From Klebsiella pneumoniae (lineage in GTDB: Bacteria > Pseudomonadota > Gammaproteobacteria > Pseudomonadales > Pseudohongiellaceae): a stretch of 44,252 bases of DNA. The notes beneath the pieces were generated by a model. The model was not told the origin of the DNA and ran no database searches. It worked only from the letters and a program-made list of their open reading frames with translations. A program made the position numbers and the translations under genes. This document shows positions 2,136-39,031 of this stretch, piece after piece; within the stretch, counting starts at the first letter, position 1, and every line of letters starts with the position of its first letter. The DNA is taken from the NCBI GenBank assembly GCA_945877175.1, contig CAMCRC010000013.1, forward strand, positions 1 to 44,252, given 5' to 3'.

Positions 2136-3257
2136 ATGAACAACAGCGCTGCTTCCTGGATGGACCTTGCCATTGAATCGGCGTCCCGCGTTTTCTCCAC
2201 AACGCCGAACCCACGGGTCGGCTGCGTGCTGGTGCGGGATGGCGAGATCGTGGGCATTGGCCTGCACGAGAAACCCGGCGAGCACCATGCCGAGGTCAAT
2301 GCGCTGCTGGCCGCCGGCGAGCGCGCCATGGGCGCCACAGCCTATGTGTCGCTGGAACCCTGCTGCCATTTTGGCCGCACACCTCCCTGCACCCAGGCGC
2401 TGATAGCCGCTGGTGTGACGGAAGTGGTGTATGCGATGCTGGATCCGAACCCGCTGGTGGCGGGCAAGGGCGTGCAGGCCCTGCGCGACGCCGGCATCAC
2501 GGTCAGCGGACCACTGCATGAAGTCGAGGCGCGCCGGCTCAACCGCGGCTTCATCAAACGCATGAACGAGGGACTGCCCTTCGTGCGCTGCAAGATGGCA
2601 ATGAGTCTGGACGGACGCACGGCCATGGCCTCGGGCGAGAGTCAGTGGATTACCGGGCCCGCTGCCCGCGCCGATGTGCAGCGTTTGCGCGCCGAATCCT
2701 GTGCCATCGTCACCGGCGTCAATACCATCCTGAGCGATGACCCTTCGCTGAACGTGCGTGCCGAACAGTTGCAGGACCCGCGCGCTGCCGTCATGCCGCT
2801 GCGTCAGCCACGCAGGGTCATCATCGACTCCGGGCTGCGCACGCCGCCGCAATCCCGCATTCTCAGCCTCCCCGGTGAGGTGTTGTTTCTGGTGGTCAAT
2901 CCACACCTGCAGCAGCTGCAGCGCTTTTCCGGCAGTGCGGCGCAGATTCGTCAAATCGCGTCGCTGCCGGGCGGCCGGGTCGATCTGCGTGCTGCCATGC
3001 AGTGCCTGGCCCAGGACTACAGCTGCAACGAAGTCATGCTGGAAGCTGGCCCGACGCTGAGCGGGGCAATGATTCAGGCAGGGTTGGTGGACGAAGTGAT
3101 CGTCTACATCGGCGCGAAGTTTCTTGGCAGCGATGCGCTGCCCCTGCTCAATCTGCCCGGCCTGCGTCATATGGCCGATCACATCGGACTGGAAATCGTG
3201 GACGTGGCCGGCATCGCCGGCGACTGCCGCATTACCGCCAGAATCTTCAATCGCTGA
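2136..3257 (+). CDS. ribD: Bifunctional riboflavin deaminase/reductase RibD
   Basis: Performs the second and third steps of riboflavin synthesis: pyrimidine deamination, then NADPH-dependent ribose reduction. The deaminase domain (about 1-150) has zinc ligands His51 in HAEVNAL, Cys76 and Cys85 in the EPCCHFGRTPPC segment. The reductase domain follows, from MAMSLDGRTAMASG. Length is 373 residues against 367 in E. coli. ATG 2136 gives the expected N-terminus; an in-frame ATG at 2076 lies inside nrdR and would add 20 non-homologous residues. The gene starts 16 bp after nrdR. Confidence 0.96.
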   Translation: MNNSAASWMDLAIESASRVFSTTPNPRVGCVLVRDGEIVGIGLHEKPGEHHAEVNALLAAGERAMGATAYVSLEPCCHFGRTPPCTQALIAAGVTEVVYAMLDPNPLVAGKGVQALRDAGITVSGPLHEVEARRLNRGFIKRMNEGLPFVRCKMAMSLDGRTAMASGESQWITGPAARADVQRLRAESCAIVTGVNTILSDDPSLNVRAEQLQDPRAAVMPLRQPRRVIIDSGLRTPPQSRILSLPGEVLFLVVNPHLQQLQRFSGSAAQIRQIASLPGGRVDLRAAMQCLAQDYSCNEVMLEAGPTLSGAMIQAGLVDEVIVYIGAKFLGSDALPLLNLPGLRHMADHIGLEIVDVAGIAGDCRITARIFNR

Positions 3258-3272
3258 CACAAGGAACGGAAT

Positions 3273-3941
3273 ATGTTTACAGGCATCATTGAAGCCCTCG
3301 GCACTGTCGATTCCCTGCAATTGCGTGGCGGCGAATGGCGCCTGAGTGTGCACAGTGCGGCGCTGGATTTCAGCGACGTGGTGCTTGGGGACAGCATCGC
3401 CGTCAATGGCGTCTGTCTGACAGTCACACGCATGGGGCATCAAGTGTTTGATGCCGATGTTTCCAACGAGACCCTGCAGCTGACTACGCTGCACAATCTT
3501 GGCAAAGGCAGCCGCGTGAATCTGGAGAAGGCACTGACGCCCGTCAAACGCCTCGGCGGTCATATCGTCAGCGGCCATGTGGACGGTGTGGGAGAATTGC
3601 TGGATCGTCGCCCTGACGGCGGCAGCATCCGCATGGACTTCCGGGCGCCGGATGCGCTGGCAAAGTACATTGCCCAGAAGGGTTCGATCTGCATCGATGG
3701 CACCAGCCTGACCGTGAACACGGTGAAGGGCGCCACTTTCAGCATCAACGTGATTCCGCACACCCAGGCGCAGACCATCGTTCAGGATTACCGCAGCGGA
3801 CAGAAGGTGAATCTTGAAGTGGACCTCATCAGCCGTTATCTGGAACGTCTGATGCAGGGCGAACACGCCGCGGATGAACAGCACGACAGCAAGGCGGGCA
3901 CATTGACCCGCGCCTTCCTCGCAGACCAGGGATTCCTGTAA
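3273..3941 (+). CDS. ribE: Riboflavin synthase alpha subunit
   Basis: Dismutates two 6,7-dimethyl-8-ribityllumazines into riboflavin and the pyrimidine product. The protein begins with the family signature MFTGIIEALG and has two lumazine-binding repeats; the second opens at GGHIVSGHVDGVG, near residue 96. Its 222 residues are usual for the family. A ribosome site AAGGAACGG lies just upstream. It directly precedes ribBA with no spacer. The same protein is called RibC in E. coli. Confidence 0.96.
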   Translation: MFTGIIEALGTVDSLQLRGGEWRLSVHSAALDFSDVVLGDSIAVNGVCLTVTRMGHQVFDADVSNETLQLTTLHNLGKGSRVNLEKALTPVKRLGGHIVSGHVDGVGELLDRRPDGGSIRMDFRAPDALAKYIAQKGSICIDGTSLTVNTVKGATFSINVIPHTQAQTIVQDYRSGQKVNLEVDLISRYLERLMQGEHAADEQHDSKAGTLTRAFLADQGFL

Positions 3942-8319: not shown

Positions 8320-9252
8320 TCAGTACGCGAGTGCCGATTTCCCACCGCCATTTTCCGCCGTAGCGCCTGCCTGCAATTTCCGCAGTACGTCTTCCATCTC
8401 GGTCAATGAAATCGGCAGGCCCAGGAAATACCCCTGAATGTAGTCACAGTCGAAGGTGCTGAGCAGGTCGATGTCGGCTTGTGATTCGGCGCCTTCCATG
8501 GTCACGAGCAAGCCGTTGGAGTGGCACAGCTCCACCAGCGGCTTGAGAATCTGCCGGTTGCCGCGCTTGAGTGTCTGCTCGATGAAGCGCTTGTCGAACT
8601 TCACCATTTTGATCGGGTACTCCACGATGCGCAGCAGCGAAGTGAATCCGGCCCCGAAATCATCCAGTGCCAGCATGTAACCCGCGTCAGACAGTCGGTT
8701 CAGAAATGCGCTGGCATGGCTGGTGAACTCGATGTTCACGGTTTCGGTAATCTCCAGCTGGATGTTGCACGGAGCAATCTCGAAGCGCCGGGCATAGCGG
8801 TCTAGTACTTCGGTGATGTTGCTCAGTTGCAACTGTGCGGACGAAATGTTCAGCGACAGTTTGAAGTCGCGGCCCAGCAGGTTGCGGATTGCCGGGTAGC
8901 TGGACAGCCCGGTGCGTATCACCCACTCATCAATCATCGCGAACACGCCGCATGACTCGGCAATTGGCACGAACTCGTCCGGCTCCACGTTGCCCAGCAG
9001 GCGGGCGCGCATCTTCCACAGCAGCGCGGGCTCCAGCTCCAGACCCACCAGGAACAACATCATCACCACGCCGAACTCGGCGAAGTGCTGCAGCGAGACC
9101 ACGTCCACCGAGAACACGCCGAGCAGGGGGCTGATGGCGATACCGGCAATGAGATAGCCGAGCACCGAGCCCAGTTTGAAGCGCGAGGCCAGGGGCACGG
9201 CGATGACGCCGGCGCACAGGAAGACGAAGGTGAGGAAGAGGTAGTCAGTCAT
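8320..9252 (-). CDS. Chimeric protein: Kef-type antiporter N-terminus fused to a truncated EAL domain
   Basis: Residues 1 to about 87 look like the first membrane segments of a KefB/KefC-type cation/proton antiporter: [19 protein letters not shown], then [19 protein letters not shown]. The reading frame then passes without a break into the middle of an EAL (c-di-GMP phosphodiesterase) domain, at [17 protein letters not shown]. Later EAL landmarks are present ([37 protein letters not shown]). The beginning of the EAL domain, including the EALLR motif with its catalytic glutamate, is missing. Neither half is complete, so this is probably the product of a deletion. It may be a pseudogene or a new protein. 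The junction is near 8990. Confidence 0.8.
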
Positions 9253-9287
9253 GATGGGCTAAAGCCTACCCGATTCGGGGGGGGTGG

Positions 9288-9347
9288 GAGCGAGCCCTGC
9301 CTGTTGCGGCCGAGCTTTGCCCGTAGGAGCGAGCCCTGCTCGCGAAC
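9288..9347 (+). repeat. REP-like repeats left of family B copy B1
   Basis: A partial unit GTGGGAGCGAGCCCTGCC at 9288 is followed by a full unit at 9323-9347 (GTAGGAGCGAGCCCTGC then TCGCGAAC). The full unit is the inverted partner of the REP at 9539-9562 and shares its GCGAG/CTCGC subtype. The pair encloses copy B1. Pseudomonas-type REPs have this general form. Confidence 0.8.
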
Positions 9348-9370
9348 AGCCGCGGTGAGGTTAGTGCCCC

Positions 9371-9516
9371 CAGGCTCCGGGCAGGGGGCACCCCGTTCTG
9401 CGACTGACCCGCACTCATCCTGAGTGCCCTCGCATCACAAAAAGCCCAAGGTCTTTTTGCTCACTCGGTGCGGGTCTTTCATGTCGCTGAACGGGCTGCC
9501 CCCCGCCCGGAGCCTT
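9371..9516 (-). repeat. Family B structured repeat, copy B1
   Basis: Reverse-oriented copy. Outer arms 9372-9398 and 9489-9515 are complementary with about two mismatches. Inside, the GCGAC/GTCGC helix, the ACCCGCAC/GTGCGGGT helix and the inner hairpin CAAAAAG/CTTTTTG (9438-9444 with 9453-9459) appear in the shared order. The conserved single strands ACCCGCACCGAGTGAGC and GATGCGAGGGCA are intact on the minus strand. It lies between divergent genes (8320-9252 and 9695-11203). The surrounding 9253-9694 contains no gene. Confidence 0.8.
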
Positions 9517-9538
9517 CGTTAGGCACAGTGCGGCGGCT

Positions 9539-9562
9539 GTTCGCGAGCAGGGCTCGCTCCCA
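9539..9562 (-). repeat. REP-like repeat, inverted partner right of B1
   Basis: The plus strand reads GTTCGCGAGCAGGGCTCGC then TCCCAC, the reverse complement of the REP at 9323-9347 apart from one base. It closes the REP-B1-REP composite. Confidence 0.8.
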
Positions 9563-9619
9563 CGGGATTGCCAGCTGGTGCTCAGCTGGACACTATGGCC
9601 GCGCCAACCCTGTGAAAAA

Positions 9620-9643
9620 GTTCGCGGGCAAGCCCGCTCCCAC
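9620..9643 (-). repeat. Single REP-like repeat upstream of the NhaC-type gene
   Basis: The plus strand reads GTTCGCGGGCAAGCCCGC then TCCCAC. This is the GCGGG/CCCGC subtype, about 50 bp before the gene at 9695. No partner of the same subtype is nearby. Confidence 0.75.
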
Positions 9644-9694
9644 CACCACACCGGGTTATGATGCGGCACGCTCCTCACTCATTGCGGAACACCC

Positions 9695-11203
9695 ATGCCA
9701 GCCATTGCTCCGGATATCTTCAGCCTTGTGCCCGTCCTGCTCGCCCTCGTCATCTCCATCAGTCTGCGCAATGTCATCGTCGGGCTCTTCACCGGGCTGT
9801 TCGCCGGCGTGCTGATGATCGAGGGGCCGGCGCTGCTCGACGGGGTGAGCGTGATGGTGCGTGACTATCTGGTGCCCCAGGTCACAGACAGCTACAACGC
9901 CGGCGTGCTGGTGCTGCTGGTGTTCATCGGGGGCTTCGTGGCGCTGATGGAACGCTCGGGCGGTGGCGGGGCATTCGCGGCGAAAGTGGCGCGCTTCATC
10001 ACCACGAAGGCACGTCTGCAGATCTCGGCCTGGATTGGCGGCGTCATGATCTTCTTTTCCGATCTGGGTACGCCGCTGATTGTAGGCCCTACCTTCCGTC
10101 CTATGGCCGACCACCTGCGGGTGTCCCGCGCCAAGCTGGCATGGATCATCGATTCCACCGCGTCGCCAGTAGCGATTCTGGTGCCCTTCATTGGCTGGGG
10201 CGTTTACATCATGAGCTTGCTGGAACAGCAGTTCACCGCGCTGGGTATCGAACAGTCCGACTTTCAGGCGCTGGTTGCCGCGCTGCCGTTCCAGTTCTAT
10301 GCCTGGCTGGCGGTGCTGTCTGTGCCTTTGATGGCATTGACCGGCGTGGAGTTCGGCCCGATGGCGCGTTCGGAGCGCCGTGCCGCAGAGTCGGGTCTGA
10401 CGCCGGAGGAGGCCGCAAACGCGACACTGAATGCGCCGCCGCAGGGTGCTACCGACAAGGCGCGGGCGTCCTTCATCTGGCTGCCGCTGCTGGTGCTGTT
10501 CATCGTGCTGCTGTGGACCCTGGTCCCGCTGGGATTTCCCTTCGGGCGGGTGAGTGGCGCCGACTTCCGTGCCGGGTTGTCGACGGCTTATCTGAGCGCG
10601 GCGGTCGCGCTGATTCTGCTGATGGCGTTCGCAGGGGCGCAGCGCGTGATGGCCAGTGTGCAGGTGTATCTGGAAGGCATGAGCCGCATGATGCTGGTGG
10701 CGGTCATGCTCTTGCTGGCCTGGGCCATGGGCGACATGACCACGGCGCTGGGCGGCGATGTTTACGTGGCCACGCTGGCGGCCGAGAACGCAGCCCCGTG
10801 GGCGCTGCCGGTGATGATCTTTCTGGTGTGCTGCAGCATCTCCTTCGCCACGGGCTCGTCATGGGGCACCTTCGCCATCATGCTGCCCCTGGCGCTGCCG
10901 GCCACTGTCGCCGTCGATGCACCGCTGTATGTGTGCATCGGCGCGGTGCTGTCGGGCGGACTGTTTGGTGACCACTGCTCGCCGGTCTCCGAGACCACGA
11001 TCCTGTCATCCACCGGTGCCGGCTGTGATGCCTTTGAACACTTCCAGACCCAGCTGCCCTATGCGCTGGCCAATGGCGTGCTGTGCATCGGTGGCTATGT
11101 GCTGGCGGGCTTCACTGGTTCAGCCTGGACGCTGATGCTGCTGATCCCGCTGCAGGTGGGGGGGCTGCTGTTGTACGGCAGACTGCGAAAGGTCACCGAG
11201 TAG
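9695..11203 (+). CDS. Na+/H+ antiporter, NhaC family
   Basis: Inner-membrane antiporter of 502 residues with about a dozen hydrophobic segments. Landmarks are FSDLGTPLIVGPTFRPMAD in the first half and ATGSSWGTFAIMLPLALP followed by GGLFGDHCSPVSETTILSS in the second; the last is the NhaC-type signature. It probably exchanges Na+ for H+, but amino acid or other antiport cannot be excluded from sequence. ATG 9695 precedes the first membrane segment. There is no operon partner: noncoding DNA with REP and family B repeats lies on both sides. Confidence 0.85.
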   Translation: MPAIAPDIFSLVPVLLALVISISLRNVIVGLFTGLFAGVLMIEGPALLDGVSVMVRDYLVPQVTDSYNAGVLVLLVFIGGFVALMERSGGGGAFAAKVARFITTKARLQISAWIGGVMIFFSDLGTPLIVGPTFRPMADHLRVSRAKLAWIIDSTASPVAILVPFIGWGVYIMSLLEQQFTALGIEQSDFQALVAALPFQFYAWLAVLSVPLMALTGVEFGPMARSERRAAESGLTPEEAANATLNAPPQGATDKARASFIWLPLLVLFIVLLWTLVPLGFPFGRVSGADFRAGLSTAYLSAAVALILLMAFAGAQRVMASVQVYLEGMSRMMLVAVMLLLAWAMGDMTTALGGDVYVATLAAENAAPWALPVMIFLVCCSISFATGSSWGTFAIMLPLALPATVAVDAPLYVCIGAVLSGGLFGDHCSPVSETTILSSTGAGCDAFEHFQTQLPYALANGVLCIGGYVLAGFTGSAWTLMLLIPLQVGGLLLYGRLRKVTE

Positions 11204-11252
11204 ACTGGATTTTGAAGGAGCGGGCCCTGCCTGTGGGGGGTGCTTGTCAGTG

Positions 11253-11274
11253 AGAGCGGGCTTGCCCGCGGAAC
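11253..11274 (+). repeat. REP-like repeat left of family B copy B2
   Basis: Reads GAGCGGGCTTGCCCGCGGAAC. It is the inverted partner, of the same GCGGG/CCCGC subtype, of the REP at 11466-11490; together they enclose B2. A weaker unit (GGAGCGGGCCCTGCC) lies just upstream, near 11217. Confidence 0.75.
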
Positions 11275-11290
11275 GTGGCACAGAGATCAA

Positions 11291-11450
11291 GCGCGGCCAG
11301 CGCGTTCGGGTGGGCGGGTCTGCGAAGCGGCATAAGAGACCCGCACCGAGTGAGCAAAGAGACCGAGGCTCTTTGCGATGCGAGGGCACCCGGGAGGGGT
11401 GCGGGTCAGCCGCAGAGCGGAGCCCGCCCACCCGGACGTGCTGGCCGCGC
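11291..11450 (+). repeat. Family B structured repeat, copy B2
   Basis: Forward copy. Outer arms 11291-11318 and 11423-11450 (28 nt each) are complementary with two mismatches. The inner hairpin is CAAAGAG/CTCTTTG (11355-11361 with 11369-11375). AGCGGC pairs with GCCGC and ACCCGCACC with GGTGCGGGT. It lies between the convergent ends of the NhaC-type gene (11203) and the phosphatase (11539), so it could act on transcript ends from both sides. No T-run follows. The intergenic 11204-11538 holds no gene. Confidence 0.82.
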
Positions 11451-11465
11451 CACCAATGAGAAAAA

Positions 11466-11536
11466 GTTCGCGGGCAAGCCCGCTCCCACAGGCTCGCTCC
11501 CACCGGCAAGTTCGCGAGCAGGGCTCGCTCCTACAG
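11466..11536 (-). repeat. REP-like repeats right of B2, next to the phosphatase stop
   Basis: Two full units read on the minus strand, 11466-11490 (GCGGG subtype, partner of 11253-11274) and 11510-11536 (GCGAG subtype), with a partial unit between them. The last ends 3 bp before the alkaline phosphatase stop codon. Confidence 0.8.
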
Positions 11537-11538
11537 GT

Positions 11539-13074
11539 TCAGCGCAATTCCAGCGCATCCGCCATGATGTGGAAAATCACGTTCTGCTCCAGCGTCCCGC
11601 TGAAGTAGTGCGCCTTGGGACCCGAGGCATAGATGGCCACGTCTTCCCCCGCGTGGGTCTCGCTCATCATTGGCACGGCACTTTCCTGCATATAGTCCGG
11701 GGCAGTCGTGGCCACGGCACTAAGGTCGGGCCGCGACTTGTCGCCCGTGAAATCTGCTTCACGGCTCTGGCCTTCCTCGCCCGTGAATTCATGGCGATCG
11801 CCGTCGGCCACATAGCCCGGGCCGTTCGCATAGCCCAGCGTGGTGTAAGGCAGGCCAAGCGCGTCCTTCATGGGGCCATTCGCAGTGGCAGCCAGTCCCA
11901 GAATCGGATTGCCGCGCATGGGGTAACCCGCCAGCGTGAATACGTGACTGTGGTCGGCGGTGACGATGATGAGGGTATCCTCGTCGCTGCTCATCTCCCT
12001 GGCTACGGCCACGGCTTCCGACAGCGCGATGGTGTCGGTCAGCGCGCGGTAGGCATTGCCGGCGTGGTGGGCGTGGTCGATGCGGCCGGCTTCCACCATC
12101 AGGTAGTAGCCGTTCTCGTTGCCCTGCAGCAGGCCGATGGCAGTGCGGGTCATCTCAGCCAGGCTGGGTTCACCGGCCTCGTCCTGCGCACGGTCGGCTT
12201 CGTATTTCATGTGGGACGGTTCAAACAGGCCGAGCACCGGGCCGGCTGTGTCAGTGTCCAGTGCCTCGAACTGCGCCTGGTTCCATACATAGGTCGCGCC
12301 TGGTTTTTCCAGCCACTCCTGCGTCAGGTCGCGGCCGTCGGTGCGCCTGCCGGACATGGCGGGGTACTCGGGGTCCGGCGTCTGTTCCGGGAGGAAGAAG
12401 CCGCGGCCGCCACCCAGTACCACGTCGATGCCGTCGCCATGGCTGAACTCCAGCAGCTGGCGGGCGATGTCCTTGACGGTGGCGCCAGCGGGCAGTGCTG
12501 CGTTGCCTTCCCAGTCGCGGTTGCCGATGTGGGCATAGTTCGACGCGGGGGTTGCATGGGTGATGCGGGCCGTCGACACGATGCCCGTGGCCATGCCGCG
12601 TTGTTCCGCGAGTTCCAGAATCGTCGTGACACTGTTCGCTGCGATGACGCTGGCGTCGGCTTCGTCCTGCGCGACCACCTGGGCGACGGACAGTGCGCCG
12701 TCATTGGCCTTGATGCCGGTCACCATGGCGGTGGCAGTGGGGGCCGAGTCAGAAGTCTGCTGGTTGGCGCTGGCAGTGACCGAGTGCGCCAGCCAGGGCA
12801 GGGTCTCGAAACTCAGTCGGTTGCTTTCGCCATCCACCTGGCGCTGCTGGCCTTCAAGAATGCGCGCGGCCGTGACCGTCGACACGCCCATGCCATCGCC
12901 CACGAAAAGAATGACATTGCGCGCCTTGCCCGTGTTCGGCGTGCGGGCGCGGGCAGCTTCCAGCGCCTGCTGGCCCTGGGCGTACCATCCGGCGGCATCG
13001 GCCGGCTGCGCGAACGCGGGGGTGCAACAGACGAGGAGCATTGGCAAGGCAAAGCAGGAAAGGACGCGGAACAT
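11539..13074 (-). CDS. Secreted alkaline phosphatase
   Basis: PhoA-family metalloenzyme that releases phosphate from monoesters in the periplasm. A signal peptide (MFRVLSCFALPMLLVCC ... AFA|Q) is followed by VILFVGDGMG (metal ligand Asp60), the nucleophile Ser110 in TSDSAPTATAMVTG, MVEAGRIDHAHHAG and IVTADHSHVFTLAG. Length is 511 residues. ATG 13074 was chosen because it begins the signal peptide; the frame stays open upstream, but that part is translated REP sequence. No pho box was identified. Confidence 0.92.
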   Translation of the reverse strand: MFRVLSCFALPMLLVCCTPAFAQPADAAGWYAQGQQALEAARARTPNTGKARNVILFVGDGMGVSTVTAARILEGQQRQVDGESNRLSFETLPWLAHSVTASANQQTSDSAPTATAMVTGIKANDGALSVAQVVAQDEADASVIAANSVTTILELAEQRGMATGIVSTARITHATPASNYAHIGNRDWEGNAALPAGATVKDIARQLLEFSHGDGIDVVLGGGRGFFLPEQTPDPEYPAMSGRRTDGRDLTQEWLEKPGATYVWNQAQFEALDTDTAGPVLGLFEPSHMKYEADRAQDEAGEPSLAEMTRTAIGLLQGNENGYYLMVEAGRIDHAHHAGNAYRALTDTIALSEAVAVAREMSSDEDTLIIVTADHSHVFTLAGYPMRGNPILGLAATANGPMKDALGLPYTTLGYANGPGYVADGDRHEFTGEEGQSREADFTGDKSRPDLSAVATTAPDYMQESAVPMMSETHAGEDVAIYASGPKAHYFSGTLEQNVIFHIMADALELR

Positions 13075-13143
13075 TGGTGACACCCGGAGGCAGTGAATGG
13101 AAACCTGCACTATAGCCGAGGTGTGTGACAGGGTTGTGAAGGG

Positions 13144-13219
13144 GTTCGCGGGCAAGCCCGCTCCCACAGGCAAGCCCGCTCCCACGAACAGGTCTGTGGG
13201 AGCTTGCTTGCAAGCGAAC
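13144..13219. repeat. REP-like repeats between the phosphatase start and copy B3
   Basis: A minus-oriented unit (13144-13167, GCGGG subtype) and a partial copy (about 13171-13185) are followed by a plus-oriented unit of a different subtype, GTGGGAGCTTGCTTGC then AAGCGAAC (13195-13219). The last is the matched inverted partner of 13406-13432, and the pair encloses B3. Confidence 0.8.
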
Positions 13220-13245
13220 CTGGCCAATCGAATGGCACAAAAAGA

Positions 13246-13386
13246 GGCCCCGGGCGGCGGGCGCCGCGTTCAGCGACATAAGAGACCCGCACCGAGTGAG
13301 CCAGGAGACCTAGGCTCCTGGCGATGCGAGGGCATCCGGGAGGGATGCGGGTCAGTCGCAGAACGCGGTGCCCGCCGGCCGGGGCC
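13246..13386 (+). repeat. Family B structured repeat, copy B3
   Basis: Forward copy. Arms 13246-13271 and 13361-13386 are complementary with two mismatches. The inner hairpin is CCAGGAG/CTCCTGG (13301-13307 with 13315-13321). GCGAC pairs with GTCGC (as in B1, where the other copies have GCGGC/GCCGC) and ACCCGCA with TGCGGGT. The small hairpin GCATCC/GGATGC replaces GCACCC/GGGTGC of B2. It lies between two minus-strand genes; 13075-13433 holds no gene. Confidence 0.82.
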
Positions 13387-13405
13387 GGGTCGGAGCACCA
13401 TCGCT

Positions 13406-13432
13406 GTTCGCTTGCAAGCAAGCTCCTACAGG
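13406..13432 (-). repeat. REP-like repeat, inverted partner right of B3
   Basis: The plus strand reads GTTCGCTTGCAAGCAAGC then TCCTACAGG, the GCTTGC subtype also used at 13195-13219. It ends 1 bp before the stop codon of the next gene. Confidence 0.8.
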
Positions 13433-13433
13433 G

Positions 13434-15716
13434 TCAGGGCTGGAACATGTACGAGAACTTCACGAAGATCTGGTCGCCATCGCGCTTCAGATCATTGGTC
13501 ACCACCACTTCGCGCTCGTCTTCCACTTCGATGATCTCGAAATTGCTCTGATTGCTGTTGTAGCCCACATACAGCGCCGACCACGGGTTGATTACATAGC
13601 GCAGCAGAATGTCGAAGTTCAGGTTCTCGTCATCCACCAGACGCGTGTTGGGGCCGGCGTCTGTCTTCTCGTATTGGGTGATGAAACGCAGAGACATCTC
13701 GCGGGTGAACTGGTAGTTCCAGCTGCTGCGGAAGATCTCGTTGGTGAACACCTTGCCACCGCGGCCGTCCAGTTCGGACGTCACGTAGGAGTTGTCCACG
13801 CGCAGACGCTCGATGGGGCGCCACAGCACGCTGATATCCAGACGCTGGGTGTCGGCCACCGAGGGCATCACACCACGGCGCGGCACCAGGTTCAGTGCGG
13901 TGCCCTTGCGGAAGCTGGTGTCGAACGTCAGCGTGGACAGCGCTGTGTTGCGATAGCGGGCGGACATGTTGTTGTAACCATAGGCCTCGGGGCGTCTCAG
14001 GCCGGCGAAGTCCATCGGGCGCAGCACTTCGGTGATGTCCTGCGCGCTCAGAGTGATGCGGCTGGTGGCGAATACCCAGTTGACGCTGGGCGACACTTCG
14101 GAATACACCTTGATGCCGTCCTTGTCGTCCTGATACACGAACATCACCCCGGGTGCCCAGTTGTTCAGGGTCGAATTCTCGGGGTAGAACTGGTAGTCGT
14201 TGCGCCAGTGAATGCCGGAGATGTCAGACTTGAAGAAGCGGTTCTGGAAGCCCAGTTGCGCACGGAAGTCGGCGTCGGTGTCCACGAAATGGAAGTGGGT
14301 GTTGAAGCCGCGGCCCACGCGATCGACTCGGATATTGCGCTGCATGCCGGTCAGCTCGGCGCCGCCGAAGGTCGGTTCGGTGTCGGTGCCGATGAACTCG
14401 AGGTTGGTCACCCAGTTGGTGTTGATGCGGAACTTGCCGTCCACACTCAGCACGCGGTTGTAGCCATCGACCAGCTCACGGTCTGTGAACAGCATGCCCA
14501 CGCGGTCCTGCCCTTCCAGGTCACGGTAGGCGCGGAACACGCCAATGGTGGCTTTCTCGCCCTTGAGCGGGTCAGTGGCCGCGCGGTTCAGGCCGGGCGC
14601 CTCGTCGTTCATCATGATGGTGCCGAAGCCCCACTGTCCGGCGCGGCCGGTAAAGCGCAGACCCGCTTCCGGGTCGACGATGCGCCGGGTGAACAGCAGG
14701 ATCGAGTCAGTGGCGAAGAAGTCGGCGTTTTCGACGAAGAACGGGCGTCGCTCGGGATACTGCACTTCGAAGCGCTCGTTGACGGTGACCTGAGGCTCGT
14801 CCGACTCGACCTGCGAGAAGTCCGGATTCAGTGTCAGGTCCAGCACCCAGGCGTCATTGAACACAAATTTGGCATCGACACCGACGTCGTATTCCTTGTC
14901 GCTTTCCATCAGGGGTCCGCCCGCTGCGCGGGGGTTGATCGCCTCGACGTCACGTGCGAACAGGAAGGGCACGATCTGCGTGTTGCTGCCCGGGGAGACG
15001 TTGCGGATGCCGGTCATCAGGGCGGTCTGATTCAGGCGCCCGTCCACGTTGATGGAGAAGGGCGGCCAGAAGCTCTCCTCGCTCAGGCGCGGGATCTGGC
15101 GGCTGGCCTGCACGCGCCACACCTGGTCCTGTGTATCGGGGAAGCGCAGACCGCGCAGTGGCACGCGGATGCTGACCATGTAACCCTGTTCGTTCACTTC
15201 GCCGTCGCTGTCCCACACGGCTTCCCACGTGGTGTCGAAACCGGCACGGTTGGAGAAGCCTTCCGTCCAGCGGGCATCCCACTGCACGCCCAGCGGCGTG
15301 ACGCGGAAGGTGTAGGCGGTGCGCTGGTCATTGAAAGTGTCGATGGTCAGCTCAACGGTGTCGTCGCCGCTGATGTTCTCGCGGGACGCGAGGTTGGCGC
15401 GGATCTGCGACGGGTCGGTGTCGAAGGCCAGGAACACGGCGTACAGCGCGCGTTCGTCATAGCCCAGGTAGACCTCGGTGCGCTGCGACGCCGGGGCGCC
15501 GTCGGTAGGTTCTCGCTGGATAAAATTTTCCATCTTCGACATCTGCCGCGCCAGGGCGGTCGCAGGCGTCATGCCGGCGAAGTCGCTGAGCGAGGGTTCC
15601 TGCGCGATGAGGGGGATGGAAATGCTGGGGGCGGCGTCTGCTGCGTAGGTCGCGGCGGGCAGGCCAAGAGCGAGCGCGCATACGAACAGACCGGACATGA
15701 ATCTGGAAACAGGCAT
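13434..15716 (-). CDS. DUF5916 outer-membrane protein with CBM9-like N-terminal domain
   Basis: Large envelope protein of 760 residues. A signal peptide (ending ATYAA) is followed by a carbohydrate-binding family 9-like domain (about 55-220; TEVYLGYDERALYAVFLAFD, then DDTVELTIDTF). A long C-terminal part follows with alternating beta strands, consistent with the DUF5916 beta barrel, ending in the aromatic KFSYMFQP. The function is not established; the family is often found near peptidases in marine bacteria. A good ribosome site (GGAGAGAA) precedes ATG 15716. No partner gene is adjacent in an operon. Confidence 0.85.
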   Translation of the reverse strand: MPVSRFMSGLFVCALALGLPAATYAADAAPSISIPLIAQEPSLSDFAGMTPATALARQMSKMENFIQREPTDGAPASQRTEVYLGYDERALYAVFLAFDTDPSQIRANLASRENISGDDTVELTIDTFNDQRTAYTFRVTPLGVQWDARWTEGFSNRAGFDTTWEAVWDSDGEVNEQGYMVSIRVPLRGLRFPDTQDQVWRVQASRQIPRLSEESFWPPFSINVDGRLNQTALMTGIRNVSPGSNTQIVPFLFARDVEAINPRAAGGPLMESDKEYDVGVDAKFVFNDAWVLDLTLNPDFSQVESDEPQVTVNERFEVQYPERRPFFVENADFFATDSILLFTRRIVDPEAGLRFTGRAGQWGFGTIMMNDEAPGLNRAATDPLKGEKATIGVFRAYRDLEGQDRVGMLFTDRELVDGYNRVLSVDGKFRINTNWVTNLEFIGTDTEPTFGGAELTGMQRNIRVDRVGRGFNTHFHFVDTDADFRAQLGFQNRFFKSDISGIHWRNDYQFYPENSTLNNWAPGVMFVYQDDKDGIKVYSEVSPSVNWVFATSRITLSAQDITEVLRPMDFAGLRRPEAYGYNNMSARYRNTALSTLTFDTSFRKGTALNLVPRRGVMPSVADTQRLDISVLWRPIERLRVDNSYVTSELDGRGGKVFTNEIFRSSWNYQFTREMSLRFITQYEKTDAGPNTRLVDDENLNFDILLRYVINPWSALYVGYNSNQSNFEIIEVEDEREVVVTNDLKRDGDQIFVKFSYMFQP

Positions 15717-15858
15717 TGTGTTCTCTCCACCGGGATTGCTTATTGTTTTGTGTCTACTTGATGTAGCCGGGGGCTTGTTTGCCCCTCTGAATGACCGGGT
15801 CGGAAGTTAGCACGAAAAGAGCTCTCAATCAGTCACTTTTTGTCACGCCCGCACCGCT

Positions 15859-17811
15859 TCAGGGCGTCAGCAGCGGGTTGCCGAAGCGCTCGCGGTAGCG
15901 CTGGCCGATGAGTGTGGCGCCCACGTTGTTGAGATGACTTTCATCCCGGTACAGCGGTGTGCCGTCGAGCACGGTCTGGCAGCGCTGCGCATCGCAGAGC
16001 ACGGCGCTCGGGTCGATCCACTGCAATTGGGGGTGGCGTGCCTGCGCCAGCGCCTTGAAATGCGCAAACGCCGCCCCCCGCTCGCGCACCCGGGCGGCGT
16101 CGATCGAGCAGTCTGGCATGTTCTTCAACAGGCAGTGGGCATAGCTGGCAGAGGGCAGCTCGGGCACGTCTTCCAGCACCACCACGCGGTGGCCACGCGC
16201 CACCAGCCAGTCCAGAGCATCGAGGAAGTATGTCTCGAAGGCGGGGTTCTGCAGATAGGCATTCCACCATGCACCCACAAAGACGGTCATGGGGCGCTGG
16301 CTCAACCAGGCCTCCAGGGCAGTGTTGCGGTCAATTTTTTCCTGATTGCCGTCGAAGGCTGTGCTGCTCTGGTCGGCACGCACGAAGGGGTTGGAGGCCC
16401 GCGTCACCATCAGCATCGACAGGTCGGCCTCCTCGAGGAAAGCGTCCATGAAGCCGATGAGTGCGGTGGCGTGGGAATCACCAATCAGCACGCTGTCGGG
16501 CACGCCATTGGTCGCGGGCGCGCCGAACAGGCAGGCCTCGCTCTGGTCGAACGCGTACTCCTCGCCCTTGAAGCACTCTTCGTAGAGGTCGGCGGCATTG
16601 TGCTGCGAAATGATCTGGTACAGCTCGCGGCGCTCGGGCGAGATGCGGAAGCTGATGTCGTCGGCGAGGCGGATGGTGGACTGGATGGCCCAGATCAGCA
16701 GCGCGGGCGCCAGCAAGAGCAGCAGAGCGGACTTCTTCAGGCTCCAGGGCCGATAGCGGAAGCGGTTCTCCACGAACCGGTAACTGAGCCACGACAAGCC
16801 CAGCACGCCGGCCAGCATCACCAGGCGCAGTGGCCAGGTCAGCTCGATGAGCTGATAGTGCAGCAGCGCGACGGGCGGCCAGTGCCACAGATAGACGGAG
16901 TAGGAGATGCCCCCCAGAAACACCATGGCGCGCAGGCTCAGCAAGCGGGCCACCAAGGTGTCACCGTGGTGCTGCCCGGCACACAGAATCAGGGCGGCGC
17001 CCGCCGTTGGCCACAGCGCGTTGTAGCCAGGGAAATGGGCGCTGCTGTCCAGCAGCAGGGCCTTGGCGATGATCAGCAGGAAACCTGTGCCTGCCAGTGC
17101 CTGAGCCTGTCCGTGGGACATGCCCTGCAGGCGCGCGCCGAACAGGGCCACGCCGGCACCCAGCAACAGTTCGAAGGCCCGGGCAGGCAACAGGTAGTAG
17201 GCCGCTTCCTGCTGGGTGGCGGCCAGCCAGATGGAGAGCGCCAGCGCCGCCACCCACAACAGGGCGAAGGGCCAGAACACCAGGCGCCCCTTGCTCAGTC
17301 GCCACGCCCCCAGCAGCAGGGCCGGCCACAGCAGATAGAACTGCTCCTCCACCGCCAGCGACCAGGTGTGCAGCAGCGTCAGCGCCTGGGCCTCGGGCGC
17401 GAAGTACTGACTAAGCTCGCCGTAGTAATACACATTGCTGAGCCCCAGCAGCGAGGCCAGCCAGCTCTTGGCAAACAGGTAGTAGTCGTCGTCCAGATAG
17501 AACGGCGAAATCATCAGGAAGCTGACGGTGGATACCAGCAGGAACACCGGCACCAGGCGGCGCAGGCGCCGGGCATAGAACTCACTGAAGCGGAACGTGC
17601 CGGCGCTCATGGCGCGCACCAGCAGCTGGGTGATCACGAAGCCGGAAATGACGAAGAACACATCCACGCCAACGAAACCGCCCGTGAGCCACGGAAACTG
17701 ATAGTGATAGGCCACCACCAGCAGCACGGCCAGTGCGCGCAGCCCTTCGATATCGGGGCGCAGTGTGTGGCCCGGAGTTGGGGAAGGGGAGGTGGAAGCG
17801 ACGGTGTTCAT
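15859..17811 (-). CDS. Membrane acyltransferase, OafA/YrhL type with SGNH domain
   Basis: 650 residues. The N-terminal part (about 1-375) is an acyltransferase-3 membrane domain: IEGLRALAVLLVVAYHYQF carries the catalytic histidine, followed by VGVDVFFVISGFVITQLL and about ten membrane segments. The C-terminal extracytoplasmic part is SGNH-like: VLIGDSHATAL has the serine, and DESHLNNVGA near the end has the Asp/His pair. Such proteins O-acetylate surface polysaccharides or peptidoglycan; the substrate here is unknown. No polysaccharide cluster is adjacent. It is divergent from the M20 peptidase gene. Confidence 0.88.
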   Translation of the reverse strand: MNTVASTSPSPTPGHTLRPDIEGLRALAVLLVVAYHYQFPWLTGGFVGVDVFFVISGFVITQLLVRAMSAGTFRFSEFYARRLRRLVPVFLLVSTVSFLMISPFYLDDDYYLFAKSWLASLLGLSNVYYYGELSQYFAPEAQALTLLHTWSLAVEEQFYLLWPALLLGAWRLSKGRLVFWPFALLWVAALALSIWLAATQQEAAYYLLPARAFELLLGAGVALFGARLQGMSHGQAQALAGTGFLLIIAKALLLDSSAHFPGYNALWPTAGAALILCAGQHHGDTLVARLLSLRAMVFLGGISYSVYLWHWPPVALLHYQLIELTWPLRLVMLAGVLGLSWLSYRFVENRFRYRPWSLKKSALLLLLAPALLIWAIQSTIRLADDISFRISPERRELYQIISQHNAADLYEECFKGEEYAFDQSEACLFGAPATNGVPDSVLIGDSHATALIGFMDAFLEEADLSMLMVTRASNPFVRADQSSTAFDGNQEKIDRNTALEAWLSQRPMTVFVGAWWNAYLQNPAFETYFLDALDWLVARGHRVVVLEDVPELPSASYAHCLLKNMPDCSIDAARVRERGAAFAHFKALAQARHPQLQWIDPSAVLCDAQRCQTVLDGTPLYRDESHLNNVGATLIGQRYRERFGNPLLTP

Positions 17812-17888
17812 GCAGCGTGTTCAGCCATCCGGCGGCGGTCAGAGGAGCGGCAAGGGTAGCAGGAAACCCCGGCGCGGCAAGTCTGGCA

Positions 17889-17919
17889 TTGCCCCGGGCG
17901 ACGGGCTGTGGGTTACAAT
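17889..17919 (+). promoter_or_regulatory. Possible sigma-70 promoter for the M20 peptidase gene
   Basis: TTGCCC (17889-17894) and TACAAT (17914-17919) are separated by 19 bp, slightly long. The -10 lies 35 bp before ATG 17955. This rests on pattern only. Confidence 0.45.
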
Positions 17920-17954
17920 CCTGGCAAATCCGTCTTCTTTACAAGGAAATCCCC

Positions 17955-19325
17955 ATGCCTTCCGCATTGCCACTCCGTCTTCACCGTGTGCCCCGAATGG
18001 CTGTCTGCTGTGCACTGAAACGGGCGCTGATGCAGGCGCTGGGCGTGCTGGCCGTCGTCGGCAGTGCACCACTGCTGGCCCAGCCGGCCGGGCCGGTCAC
18101 CGTGGCCGCTGAGGTCGCTGCCCAGTTTGCGCTGGTGGCCGCAGATCCGCGGGTGCAGACGAGTCTGCAGGAGATAGCCGCCGCCGAGCCGGAAACGCTG
18201 GCCGAGCAGGTGCGCATCACCGAGATTCCGGCCCCGCCGTTCCAGGAACAGCGCCGTGCCGAATACTATCTGGAGCAGATGCGCCAGCGCGGCCTGACCG
18301 ACGCCTACATCGACACCGAGGGCAATGTCATCGGCGTGCGTCCCGGCACGGGGGACGGACCCCTGTTCGTGATCGCCGCCCATCTGGACACGGTGTTCCC
18401 GCTGGAGACAGACGTGTCGGTGGAAATGCGCGACGGCCGCTACTACGCGCCCGGCATCAGTGATGACGGCCGTGGCCTGACTGCCCTGCTGACCCTGATC
18501 GATGCCATCACCCGCAGCAATATCCAGACGGTGGGCGACATCATGTTCGTCGGCAATGTGGGGGAGGAGGGACAGGGCGACCTGCGGGGCATCAAGGCCA
18601 TCTTCCGCGACCACCCTGACATCGACGGCTTCGTGTCCATCGACGGCTCGGGCCTGACGCGCATGACCACGGGCGGCACCGGCAGCCGCCGTTTTGCCGT
18701 GGAATTCACTGGCCCGGGCGGACATTCCTTCAGTGCCTTCGGCATGGTCAGTGCCATTCACGCCATGGGCCGGGCCATCACCAGGATCGGCGACCTGCAG
18801 GTGCCCGAAACGCCCCGCACCACCTTCACGGTGGGCACGGTGACCGGGGGCACCTCGGTAAACTCCATCGCAGCGGATGCCATGTTCGAGCTGGACATGC
18901 GTTCCAACGACGCCGCCGAACTGGCGCGGCTGGAGGCGCAGGTGCGGGAGGTGACGCAGGCTGCTGTGGAAGAAGAAAACGCGCGCTGGAACAACAATGG
19001 CGAGATCACGGTGAACTTCCGGCTGATCGGGGATCGTCCTACTGGCGGCACGGCCTCGGAGCAGCCGCTGGTACAGGTGGCGGCGCTGGCCTTCGAGGCG
19101 GTGGGTTCGCCGCTGGAGGCGCTGCGTACCTCGAGCACGGACTCCAATATTCCAATGTCGCTGGGCATTCCTGCGATTACCATCGGGGGTGGCGGGGCGA
19201 GCGGCGGCGAGCATGCGCCGGAAGAGTGGTATGACCCGACCAATTCGCACCTGGGGCCGCAGCTGGCGTTTCTGCTGACGCTGGGCCTGGTGGGCATCGA
19301 AGGCGTCAGCCTGCCGCAGTTGTGA
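17955..19325 (+). CDS. Exported M20-family metallopeptidase
   Basis: 456 residues, a zinc-dependent peptidase of the M20/PepT-like type. An N-terminal export signal (ending LLAQPAG) is followed by the metal-site motifs VIAAHLDTVFPLE, APGISDDGRGLTALL and VGNVGEEGQGDL, a dimerization domain around FTGPGGHSFSAFG, and a last metal histidine probably in GGEHAPEEWY. The start at 17955 has AGGAAAT upstream; the frame is open 74 codons further but without homology. It probably hydrolyses peptides outside the cytoplasm; the substrate is unknown. The gene is monocistronic. Confidence 0.9.
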   Translation: MPSALPLRLHRVPRMAVCCALKRALMQALGVLAVVGSAPLLAQPAGPVTVAAEVAAQFALVAADPRVQTSLQEIAAAEPETLAEQVRITEIPAPPFQEQRRAEYYLEQMRQRGLTDAYIDTEGNVIGVRPGTGDGPLFVIAAHLDTVFPLETDVSVEMRDGRYYAPGISDDGRGLTALLTLIDAITRSNIQTVGDIMFVGNVGEEGQGDLRGIKAIFRDHPDIDGFVSIDGSGLTRMTTGGTGSRRFAVEFTGPGGHSFSAFGMVSAIHAMGRAITRIGDLQVPETPRTTFTVGTVTGGTSVNSIAADAMFELDMRSNDAAELARLEAQVREVTQAAVEEENARWNNNGEITVNFRLIGDRPTGGTASEQPLVQVAALAFEAVGSPLEALRTSSTDSNIPMSLGIPAITIGGGGASGGEHAPEEWYDPTNSHLGPQLAFLLTLGLVGIEGVSLPQL

Positions 19326-19329
19326 TGTG

Positions 19330-19424
19330 GTGGGAGCGGGCTTGCCCGCGAACTGTAGTTGGGATTTGTAGGATTTGCGGAACTGTGGGAGCGAGCCCTG
19401 TGGGAGCGAGCCCTGCTCGCGAAC
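19330..19424 (+). repeat. REP-like repeats after the M20 gene, left of B4
   Basis: A GCGGG-subtype unit (19330-19353) starts 5 bp after the stop codon. A second block at 19385-19424 has a duplicated GTGGGAGCGAGCCCTG start and one full GCGAG-subtype unit. That unit is the inverted partner of 19632-19658 across B4. Confidence 0.8.
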
Positions 19425-19457
19425 TGCCAGTGCAGGATTTTGCACGCAGCCTCGATC

Positions 19458-19598
19458 GGCGCCGCCTCCCCGGGGGCTGGTTCTGCGGCTGACCCGCACT
19501 CATCCTGAGTCCCCTCGCATCGCAGGGAGCCACGGTCTCCCTGCTCACTCGGTGCGGGTCTCTTATGCCGCTGAACCAGCCCCCGGAGAGGCGCCGCC
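19458..19598 (-). repeat. Family B structured repeat, copy B4
   Basis: Reverse copy. Arms 19458-19483 and 19573-19598 are complementary with about three mismatches. The inner hairpin is CAGGGAG/CTCCCTG (19523-19529 with 19537-19543). GCGGC pairs with GCCGC and ACCCGCAC with GTGCGGGT. It faces B5 in the 631-bp gap between the convergent M20 and rpoD genes, and no gene is seen in that gap. Confidence 0.82.
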
Positions 19599-19631
19599 TG
19601 AATTAGTGCCAGCGAATTGTCTGGGCGGGCA

Positions 19632-19658
19632 GTTCGCGAGCAGGGCTCGCTCCCACAG
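19632..19658 (-). repeat. REP-like repeat, inverted partner right of B4
   Basis: The plus strand reads GTTCGCGAGCAGGGCTCGC then TCCCACAG, matching the subtype of the unit ending at 19424. Confidence 0.8.
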
Positions 19659-19678
19659 TTCCAAAGGTCCACAGTTCT

Positions 19679-19718
19679 ACAGTCCCACAGGTCCCACAGG
19701 TCCACAGGTCCCACAAAT
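19679..19718. repeat. Short imperfect tandem repeat of GGTCCCACA
   Basis: About four degenerate copies of a 9-10 nt unit (TCCCACAGG, TCCACAGG and similar) follow the REP at 19632. Probably slippage expansion of a REP end; not coding. Confidence 0.5.
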
Positions 19719-19787
19719 CCCGCTCACACGGCAGTTCCTCTCCCCACTTCTGGGCGAAGAGGGGGCTTCTCGTCTGGCAGTGAGGGA

Positions 19788-19930
19788 GGCGTTGGGGGGT
19801 GGTCAGGCTGTTCAGCGGCATTAAAGACCCGCGCCGAACGCAGAAAAATGACCTTGGGCATTTTTCGGAGAGAGGGGACCCGGGAGGGGCGCGGGTCAGC
19901 CGCAGAACAGCCTGACCACCCCCCAGCGCC
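19788..19930 (+). repeat. Family B structured repeat, divergent copy B5
   Basis: Forward copy with the same architecture but the most changed sequence. Arms 19788-19813 and 19905-19930 are complementary with one mismatch. The inner hairpin is GAAAAATG/CATTTTTC (19843-19850 with 19859-19866). ACCCGCGCC pairs with GGCGCGGGT, a compensated change from the other copies, and GCGGC with GCCGC. The usual ACCGAGTGAGC and GATGCGAGG strands are altered. It has no REP pair of its own and ends 27 bp from the rpoD stop. Confidence 0.8.
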
Positions 19931-19956
19931 GGGATCACGCCACTACGCGCGCACTA

Positions 19957-21819
<1,863 letters not shown>

Positions 21820-38606: not shown

Positions 38607-38771
38607 GGTCAGTGGTTGGGGTGGGGCCGCGCTGGACACGCCGCGAGTACGTCCCTGTAGGCTCGGCGCCCGCCATCCGACCGCCATGGATGGCGGAAGT
38701 GCCGGTTTTGCAGGAGCAAAAACCGGCCTGGCGGGCGACGGTCCAGCGCGGCCCCACCCCAGCCACTGACC
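38607..38771 (+). repeat. Family A palindromic repeat, copy A2
   Basis: Outer arms 38607-38637 and 38741-38771 are complementary over 31 bp with one mismatch (G.T-compatible). Inside are GGACACGCCGCGAGTACG and TCCCTGTAGGCTCGGC, then GCCCGCC (38668-38674) pairing with GGCGGGC (38730-38736). That pair encloses two more hairpins, CCGCCATGGATGGCGG (38681-38696) and GCCGGTTTTGC/GCAAAAACCGGC. The copy starts 3 bp after murU. It could end transcription or protect a 3' end, but has no terminal T-run. Confidence 0.8.
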
Positions 38772-38850: not shown

Positions 38851-39031
38851 GCCATGGGCCGCTCGCGGACGCACCACTGCACCAGGTCGTCAGGGCGGGG
38901 GCGGGGTTTTGGACCGTCGCCCGCCAGGGAAGGCGGGCGCCGAGCCTACAGGGACGTACTTGTGGCGTGTCCAAAACCCCGCCCCCGCCCTGACGACCGG
39001 ATACCAGCGTGCACCGCAAGCGGCCCATGGC
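38851..39031 (-). repeat. Family A palindromic repeat, copy A3, with extended arms
   Basis: The inner element 38885-38998 has perfect 30-bp arms (38885-38914 with 38969-38998). It encloses, on the minus strand, GACACGCCACAAGTACG and TCCCTGTAGGCTCGGC and a GCCCGCC/GGCGGGC hairpin. Imperfect complementarity continues outward to GCCATGGGCC (38851-38860) and GGCCCATGGC (39022-39031), for a total palindrome of about 181 bp. It ends about 80 bp before rpe. 38604-39108 contains no gene; 38772-38850 holds nothing I recognise. Confidence 0.8.

Follow-up and report, generated by a model that had tools for sequence, protein, structure and literature searches.

Repetitive extragenic palindromic (REP) sequences, bacterial interspersed mosaic elements (BIMEs) and REP doublets forming hairpins (REPINs), with their REP-associated tyrosine transposases (RAYT, or TnpA-REP), are described as multicopy, intergenic and hairpin-forming sequences occurring in inverted pairs (PMC8266576, PMC3116915). 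Family B, the structured intergenic element studied here in a 44,252-nucleotide stretch of DNA (contig CAMCRC010000013.1, hereafter the window), shares all of these traits. By the same descriptions, a REP is a 20-50 nt palindrome after the tetranucleotide GTAG (PMC8266576) and is recognized strand-specifically as single-stranded DNA (ssDNA), a further likeness to Family B as we read it (PMC8266576, PMC3116915), and the spacer of a REPIN needs length and the capacity to form a hairpin, compensatory changes being common in it (PMC3116915).

Compared with REPs as described, Family B is large (about 145 nt), has a multi-helix junction with fixed internal loops, and carries a 5′ box, TTCGCTGGCAC-N6, instead of the GTAG leader (PMC8266576). 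In addition, no linkage to a RAYT was found, and a number of families within the order have the Family B core in common. Its size, its leader tetranucleotide and the lack of RAYT linkage place Family B outside the REP/REPIN group, although its lifestyle is alike. The R0, R2, R6 and other repeats of Pseudomonas fluorescens are described as intergenic stem-loops of 50-352 bp with a tail-repeat-tail bias, that is, inverted repeats with a variable core as the loop, whereas Family B has a conserved interior and a varying outer stem (PMC2718517). The bacterial stem-loop sequence families are, like Family B, dispersed, structured and intergenic; no covarying multi-helix fold is mentioned in the descriptions consulted, and Family B is set apart from them by description only (PMC2267715).

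The initial annotation of the window had recognized no described family in this element, and we found no description of it in the open-licence literature searched. Small intergenic repeats are common; to our knowledge, few combine a conserved multi-helix fold, compensatory changes in the hundreds and a measurable strand preference with occurrence in several families of one order. The ends of IS200/IS605 elements and attC sites act as folded single strands, one strand only, and are smaller than Family B, with other landmarks. Family B is a compact system in which to ask how non-coding DNA spreads and becomes established, and it points clearly to an enzyme or RNA-binding protein to be sought.

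Results

A conserved fold on one strand

The five copies noticed in the window were all found at the places first given (Table 1). They are real and not chance, because a covariance model (R1, built from 28 copies of the genome of origin) finds 40 strong-strand places in that genome (G000; 2,638,866 bases in 126 contigs, 90% complete) and covariation lies far above shuffled and slid controls. Standard pairs fill 94.0% of the pair cells in these 28 copies, compared with 73.7 after shuffling, and slid controls drop to 38-45% paired; changes on both sides occur at 37 of 51 pairs, in 264 cells vs 73 shuffled. Among 61 distinct copies from outside the genus, double changes were present in all 51 model pairs (1133 cells vs 368 shuffled), in an alignment fitted to the model structure and hence leaning towards it. 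The predicted fold of copy B2 reaches -123.7 kcal/mol, against -76.2 (standard deviation 4.0) for shuffled sequences. Selection on structure, as first suggested, is strongly supported.

The anatomy was read on the strand 5′-GTTCAGCGGCATAARAGACC. From its 5′ side, the unit begins with the box TTCGCTGGCAC, six free bases and a 27-bp outer stem, inside which one A per side precedes a GCGRC/GYCGC stem. Next inward, an ATAARA internal loop faces a single A, followed by an 8-bp stem (GACCCGCA/TGCGGGTC) and a junction (by-eye consensus CCGARYGMR ... GAGNGAGGGNA) carrying two hairpins: a variable one around GACC..GG, and a small one with a GGA triloop, whose GG is found in 28/28 copies and whose A in 27/28. 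The letters of the junction and triloop are fixed across the order, while the helices covary. After the second arm comes a 3′ box, approximately GNAGAATCTG; as both boxes are common to many copies (by eye), the unit was originally drawn too small, and we propose an element of about 145-190 bp with about 145 bases folded. The variants of the inner hairpin and the alternations GCGAC/GTCGC, GCGGC/GCCGC and ACCCGCACC/ACCCGCGCC appear in the alignment as they had been described, and the outer pairing of B2 extends as far as had been proposed. The arms, initially called unrelated yet complementary, are indeed complementary, but not wholly unrelated, as the left arms of the copies at 9371 and 13245 are 78% identical over 23 columns.

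The same insert of about 75 nt with its own small hairpins lies inside the GGA hairpin at three loci of the same genome (L006 1892-2107, L021 1474-1688 and L037 1474-1688), and that of L037 is absent from its orthologue L116 in the related species G002.

Were the arms maintained as duplex or by fold-back copying, G-T and A-C mismatches should appear in equal numbers, each being the other on the opposite strand. Instead, 98 copies of the genus hold 111 GT/TG vs 15 AC/CA in 2324 arm pairs, a comparison in which the aligning model was itself built on the favored strand and to which a strand-biased mutation rate could add. The other arm mismatches were GA/AG 51, GG 26, AA 4, TC/CT 6 and CC 1. These copies come from 150 aligned rows (the best 150 of 179 matches), with 42 rows dropped for being on the wrong strand or missing core motifs, 2 as duplicates and 8 for short or poorly paired arms. 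The asymmetry persists with one copy per arm cluster (26 vs 3 in 32 clusters, binomial p 8e-6) and in 61 copies outside the genus (99 vs 15); unfiltered, with both strands mixed, 131 rows give GT 126 and AC 40. The inner hairpin behaves alike in the genus (GT 17 vs AC 1) and more weakly outside it (20 vs 9). Because G-T far exceeds A-C in the arms, we take one strand's fold to be under selection, as RNA or ssDNA, in the orientation 5′-GTTCAGCGGCATAARAGACC, and the strand-asymmetric mismatches disfavor a symmetric duplex cruciform.

The arms are inherited and changed by stepwise compensation. Over five orthologue pairs between G000 and G002, with flank matches 83-96% identical, 11/135 arm pairs differ: one on both sides, four on one side yet still paired, and six unpaired in one species. 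For the window copy at 19787, compared between G000 and G004 or G006, 10/27 arm pairs differ, eight of which are double changes. There is no need to invoke an unusual copying mechanism, since close orthologues differ mainly by one-sided changes or mismatches and only more diverged ones differ mostly by double changes. Among the mechanisms first considered, RNA (or one-strand ssDNA) fits these data, while a symmetric duplex cruciform does not.

Arm lineages recur within the genome of origin. At some loci nearly whole arms differ (L016 vs L098, with 12/27 pairs changed on both sides; L025, L118 and L094 by eye), and L021 and L091 have identical arms around unlike inner parts; both patterns point to exchange between copies. 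Two copies, L025 1500-1594 and L108 598-741, are chimeric, their two arms coming from different lineages, through either recombination between copies or misassembly at repeats.

Dispersal within the genus and the order

A DNA search of the genome of origin gave 44 matches and model R1 gave 62, which include the 40 strong-strand places and, among these, all five window copies; the remaining matches are mainly reverse-strand readings of the same hairpins. Four of the 40 places end at a contig end, and L029 and L038 are, by eye, two halves of one copy. The family occurs in 10/14 genomes of the genus, this one included, with 0 to 26 matches in the 13 other congeners; four congeners gave no match under stricter filters. 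Across the order, at least 14/390 sampled genomes match, again with this one included (families f1, f4, f40, f41 and f47; a lower bound, with eight candidates scored per genome), and copies outside the genus have diverged. Across the class, 2/369 sampled genomes match, the genome of origin and G503, whose fold looks the same by eye. A pattern scan of named genomes returned 47 stretches, all metagenome-assembled and titled Gammaproteobacteria or Pseudomonadales, except for one Hydrogenophaga. The latter is a short contig binned as Hydrogenophaga sp. (L226 130-156), for which bin contamination is likely.

Rfam 15, the one collection of known families used for comparison, had no match in the window, and between 9200 and 20000 gave seven weak matches at E up to 10, all under the gathering threshold, so that the annotators' impression of an undescribed family holds against Rfam. 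Its sole match in 17 loci of relatives was a neighboring 6S RNA; in G264 (L246 1501-1917) a Family B copy lies 85 bp ahead of the 6S RNA gene. A blastn search of phages and plasmids with a 115-base piece of B3 found no match, nor did one exact pattern in viral contigs.

Copies are missing at orthologous sites in relatives, and near-identical arms and boxes occur at non-orthologous loci, forming lineages particular to one genome, as in G000 and in G004; for these two reasons we conclude that Family B spreads. Between aligned gene ends, the B2 site measures 351 bp in the window, 13 bp in G004 and 6 bp in G006, with no hairpin in either relative, and the B3 site 258 bp in the window and 15 bp in G004. 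In G006 the B3 site holds, by eye, a hairpin of a second type (A-type) and a remnant with the Family B boxes and without the core. Another copy of the genome of origin, C71:9649, is absent from G004.

Neighboring copies have a preferred orientation. Within 600 bp, 38 of 44 neighbors in 16 genomes are head to head (-/+, with 5′ ends facing; median gap 157 bp), four are --, two ++ and none +/-, and in this inverted pairing in intergenic space Family B agrees with REPs and REPINs. This count rests on 162 places after removal of wrong-strand duplicates and covers those 16 genomes and not the other genus carriers; its p-value is no more than a guide, because the tally includes copies that are related to one another. 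Two +/- neighbors in G159 (L269 and L279) lie outside the 44-pair tally.

Three candidate routes of dispersal were rejected. Capture of the arms from a target hairpin is unsupported, since in recent bursts the boxes have moved along with the arms. Reverse transcription as carrier does not fit the distribution of the reverse transcriptase family PF00078, which is present in 5/14 congeners and in none of G000, G002, G004 and G006 (completeness 90%, 86%, 90% and 76%). As for an autonomous copy with a transposase between its hairpins, the -/+ intervals of 3.4 kb (G395 C9) and 1.2 kb (G081 C82) hold open reading frames (ORFs) that look ordinary by eye, with no family search run.

Association with REP sequences

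By a looser pattern, 33/96 scored copies of the genus have an upstream REP and a downstream inverted REP within 120 bp, and 32 of these are in the four close species G000, G002, G004 and G006. As background, a sense REP (stricter pattern) was present in 32/985 tiles of 110 bp from the same loci. The distances on the two sides agree (r 0.90, n=32, 25 within 5 bp; 0/20,000 shuffles as high), with a correlation of 0.88 when each of the 26 distinct distance pairs counts once, and of 0.83 among the 19 copies whose upstream distance is >24; including one G005 outlier lowers it to 0.69, and to 0.45 when the outlier is kept and the short-distance group left out. In G000, 20/34 copies are flanked by a REP and an inverted REP by the looser pattern and 18/34 by the stricter one, as expected of a REPIN carrier, in the four close species only. 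There, Family B often takes the place that the hairpin-forming spacer has in a REPIN, within a REP doublet. It is not itself a REP, because other species carry it mostly without REPs: 1/34 scored copies outside the four close species has both, and 63/96 genus copies have no REP pair.

Table 1. Coordinates of Family B copies and associated features in the window
Feature	Position	Strand	Basis or remark
Family B copy B1	9371..9515	-	cmsearch 152.9 bits; alignment
Family B copy B2	11299..11443	+	cmsearch 133.8 bits; pairing runs out to 11291-11450; fold
Family B copy B3	13245..13388	+	cmsearch 147.1 bits
Family B copy B4, left member of head-to-head pair	19456..19599	-	149.4 bits
Family B copy B5, right member of head-to-head pair	19787..19932	+	142.2 bits
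Spacer separating the 5′ ends of B4 and B5	19600..19786	no strand	187 bp
5′ box of B3, ATCGAATGGCAC	13227..13238	+	read in sequence; family consensus TTCGCTGGCAC, by eye
5′ box of B4, minus-strand TTCGCTGGCAC	19606..19616	-	consensus by eye
5′ box of B5, TCGTCTGGCAG	19770..19780	+	read in sequence
REP repeat, one side of B1	9320..9353	+	inverted partner 97% complementary; distances 25/25 bp
Inverted REP, other side of B1	9533..9566	-	pair with 9320..9353
REP, one side of B4	19398..19435	+	distances 34/33 bp
Inverted REP, other side of B4	19621..19658	-	pair with 19398..19435
REP upstream of B3	13196..13217	+	distances 27/12 bp, among the less symmetric cases
Inverted REP downstream of B3	13405..13429	-	pair with 13196..13217

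Discussion

What is best supported in this work is that a dispersing family conserves a fold specific to one strand. As to what the fold is for, we tentatively favor, with confidence just short of even, a non-autonomous mobile element that is recognized as a folded single strand in the manner of BIMEs and REPINs. The folded form would be ssDNA of the conserved strand, and a putative transposase-like enzyme would recognize it in trans, so that the letters of the stems could drift while pairing holds and the letters contacted by the enzyme would not change. Many copies of the four closest species sit inside REP...inverted-REP cassettes, so that some of their recent spread may depend on the REP machinery. 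Family B would then have a BIME/REPIN-like lifestyle, but its fold is much larger and more intricate.

Several observations weigh against a mobile ssDNA element. No enzyme was linked to Family B here, and the asymmetry of mismatches cannot separate RNA from ssDNA because both tolerate G-T over A-C. The presence/absence differences between genomes are unpolarized and could be gain or loss alike, inheritance along with the locus accounts for many copies, and the target-site duplication that a DNA-transposon MITE with terminal inverted repeats would leave was not found at empty sites, which are too diverged or REP-embedded for base-level joints. Genes for Y1 transposases (PF01797) are present in 13/14 congeners, including the four without Family B, and absent from G002 (86% complete), which has 26 Family B matches; none of the 20/30 Y1 loci examined (about 1.5 kb on each side) contains a copy, the best match being 16.7 bits (E 0.11). 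With its distribution thus mismatched and no copy at the Y1 loci examined, a RAYT was rejected as Family B's own enzyme.

A wider proposal, which we regard as speculative but worth entertaining, is that mobile structured RNAs or folded ssDNAs form a superfamily across the order, of which Family B would be the first member to be noticed, and that they would move as head-to-head pairs, their purine-rich junction and GGA triloop being read by a dedicated putative enzyme or protein and their 27-bp stem remaining free under pairing.

The main rival of the mobile ssDNA element is an RNA function, which is possible though rather unlikely. Family B would then be a structured RNA, either an element of 3′ untranslated regions or a processed small RNA, that has multiplied in the genome and may bind a protein via its GGA triloop and purine-rich junction. 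The tolerance of G-T (G-U) over A-C by about 7:1 suits an RNA, as does the order-wide constancy of the letters in the junction and triloop, and the upstream gene reads towards the copy in 54/82 cases (genes called with our own codon-bias heuristic; six of the 82 copies are overlapped by a called ORF and four have no gene called on the 3′ side). Signals of transcription argue the other way. Sigma-70-like promoters, the only type searched, were not found in the window at 9250-19990 (0 vs 1.2 expected in shuffles) or around one pair in G005, and T4 lies within 20 nt of the 3′ end in just 1/34 copies of the genome of origin, unlike an intrinsic terminator. In G306, copies L241 and L253 start 16-18 bp after a gene, which leaves little room for a promoter. 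Family B also has no Rfam match.

It is unlikely that the copies are two-way transcription barriers at convergent gene ends, with head-to-head pairs insulating both and hairpins being freely exchanged. Such barriers would account for the 42/82 copies that lie between convergent genes, a count for which no genome-wide background was computed, and for the A-type hairpin or simple perfect stem that can occupy a gap lacking Family B in a relative. However, T-tracts are rare on either side (1/34, and 2/34 on the other strand), terminator-like sites in 9250-19990 stand at shuffle level (8 vs 6.4 expected), the B2 site shrinks to a hairpin-free 13 or 6 bp in G004 and G006, a terminator needs no fixed loop letters, and the conserved strand opposes the gene beyond the 3′ end, which points towards the copy, in 56/78 cases.

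Two further explanations are very improbable. Arms made complementary without selection by fold-back (template-switch) copying, or a structure that matters as a duplex cruciform, would explain why arms stay paired though their letters differ between copies and why L016 and L098, at one orthologous locus, differ over nearly whole arms, but both are strand-blind in the face of a GT excess of about 7:1 over AC, and only 1/11 changed arm pairs between G000 and G002 is both-sided. An attC-like recombination site, folded as ssDNA and acted on by a tyrosine recombinase, hardly seems credible either: it would match the strand-specific fold, variable stems and conserved unpaired positions, but no attC landmarks stood out by eye, no search aimed at them or at an integron integrase having been made.

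The window also contains the A-type hairpin family, at 203-295, 38607-38771 and 38885-38998, with fixed letters GAGCC..CA.GGA.G......GGCGTGTCC and copy-specific arms. By eye, relatives carry an A-type hairpin at places where the genome of origin has Family B, namely G004 at the B4 site and at locus L019, and G006 at the B3 site. At the L019 locus of G004 (L301, G004:C24, about 3090-3400), the A-type hairpin is followed by TCTTTTTTGT, resembling an intrinsic terminator.

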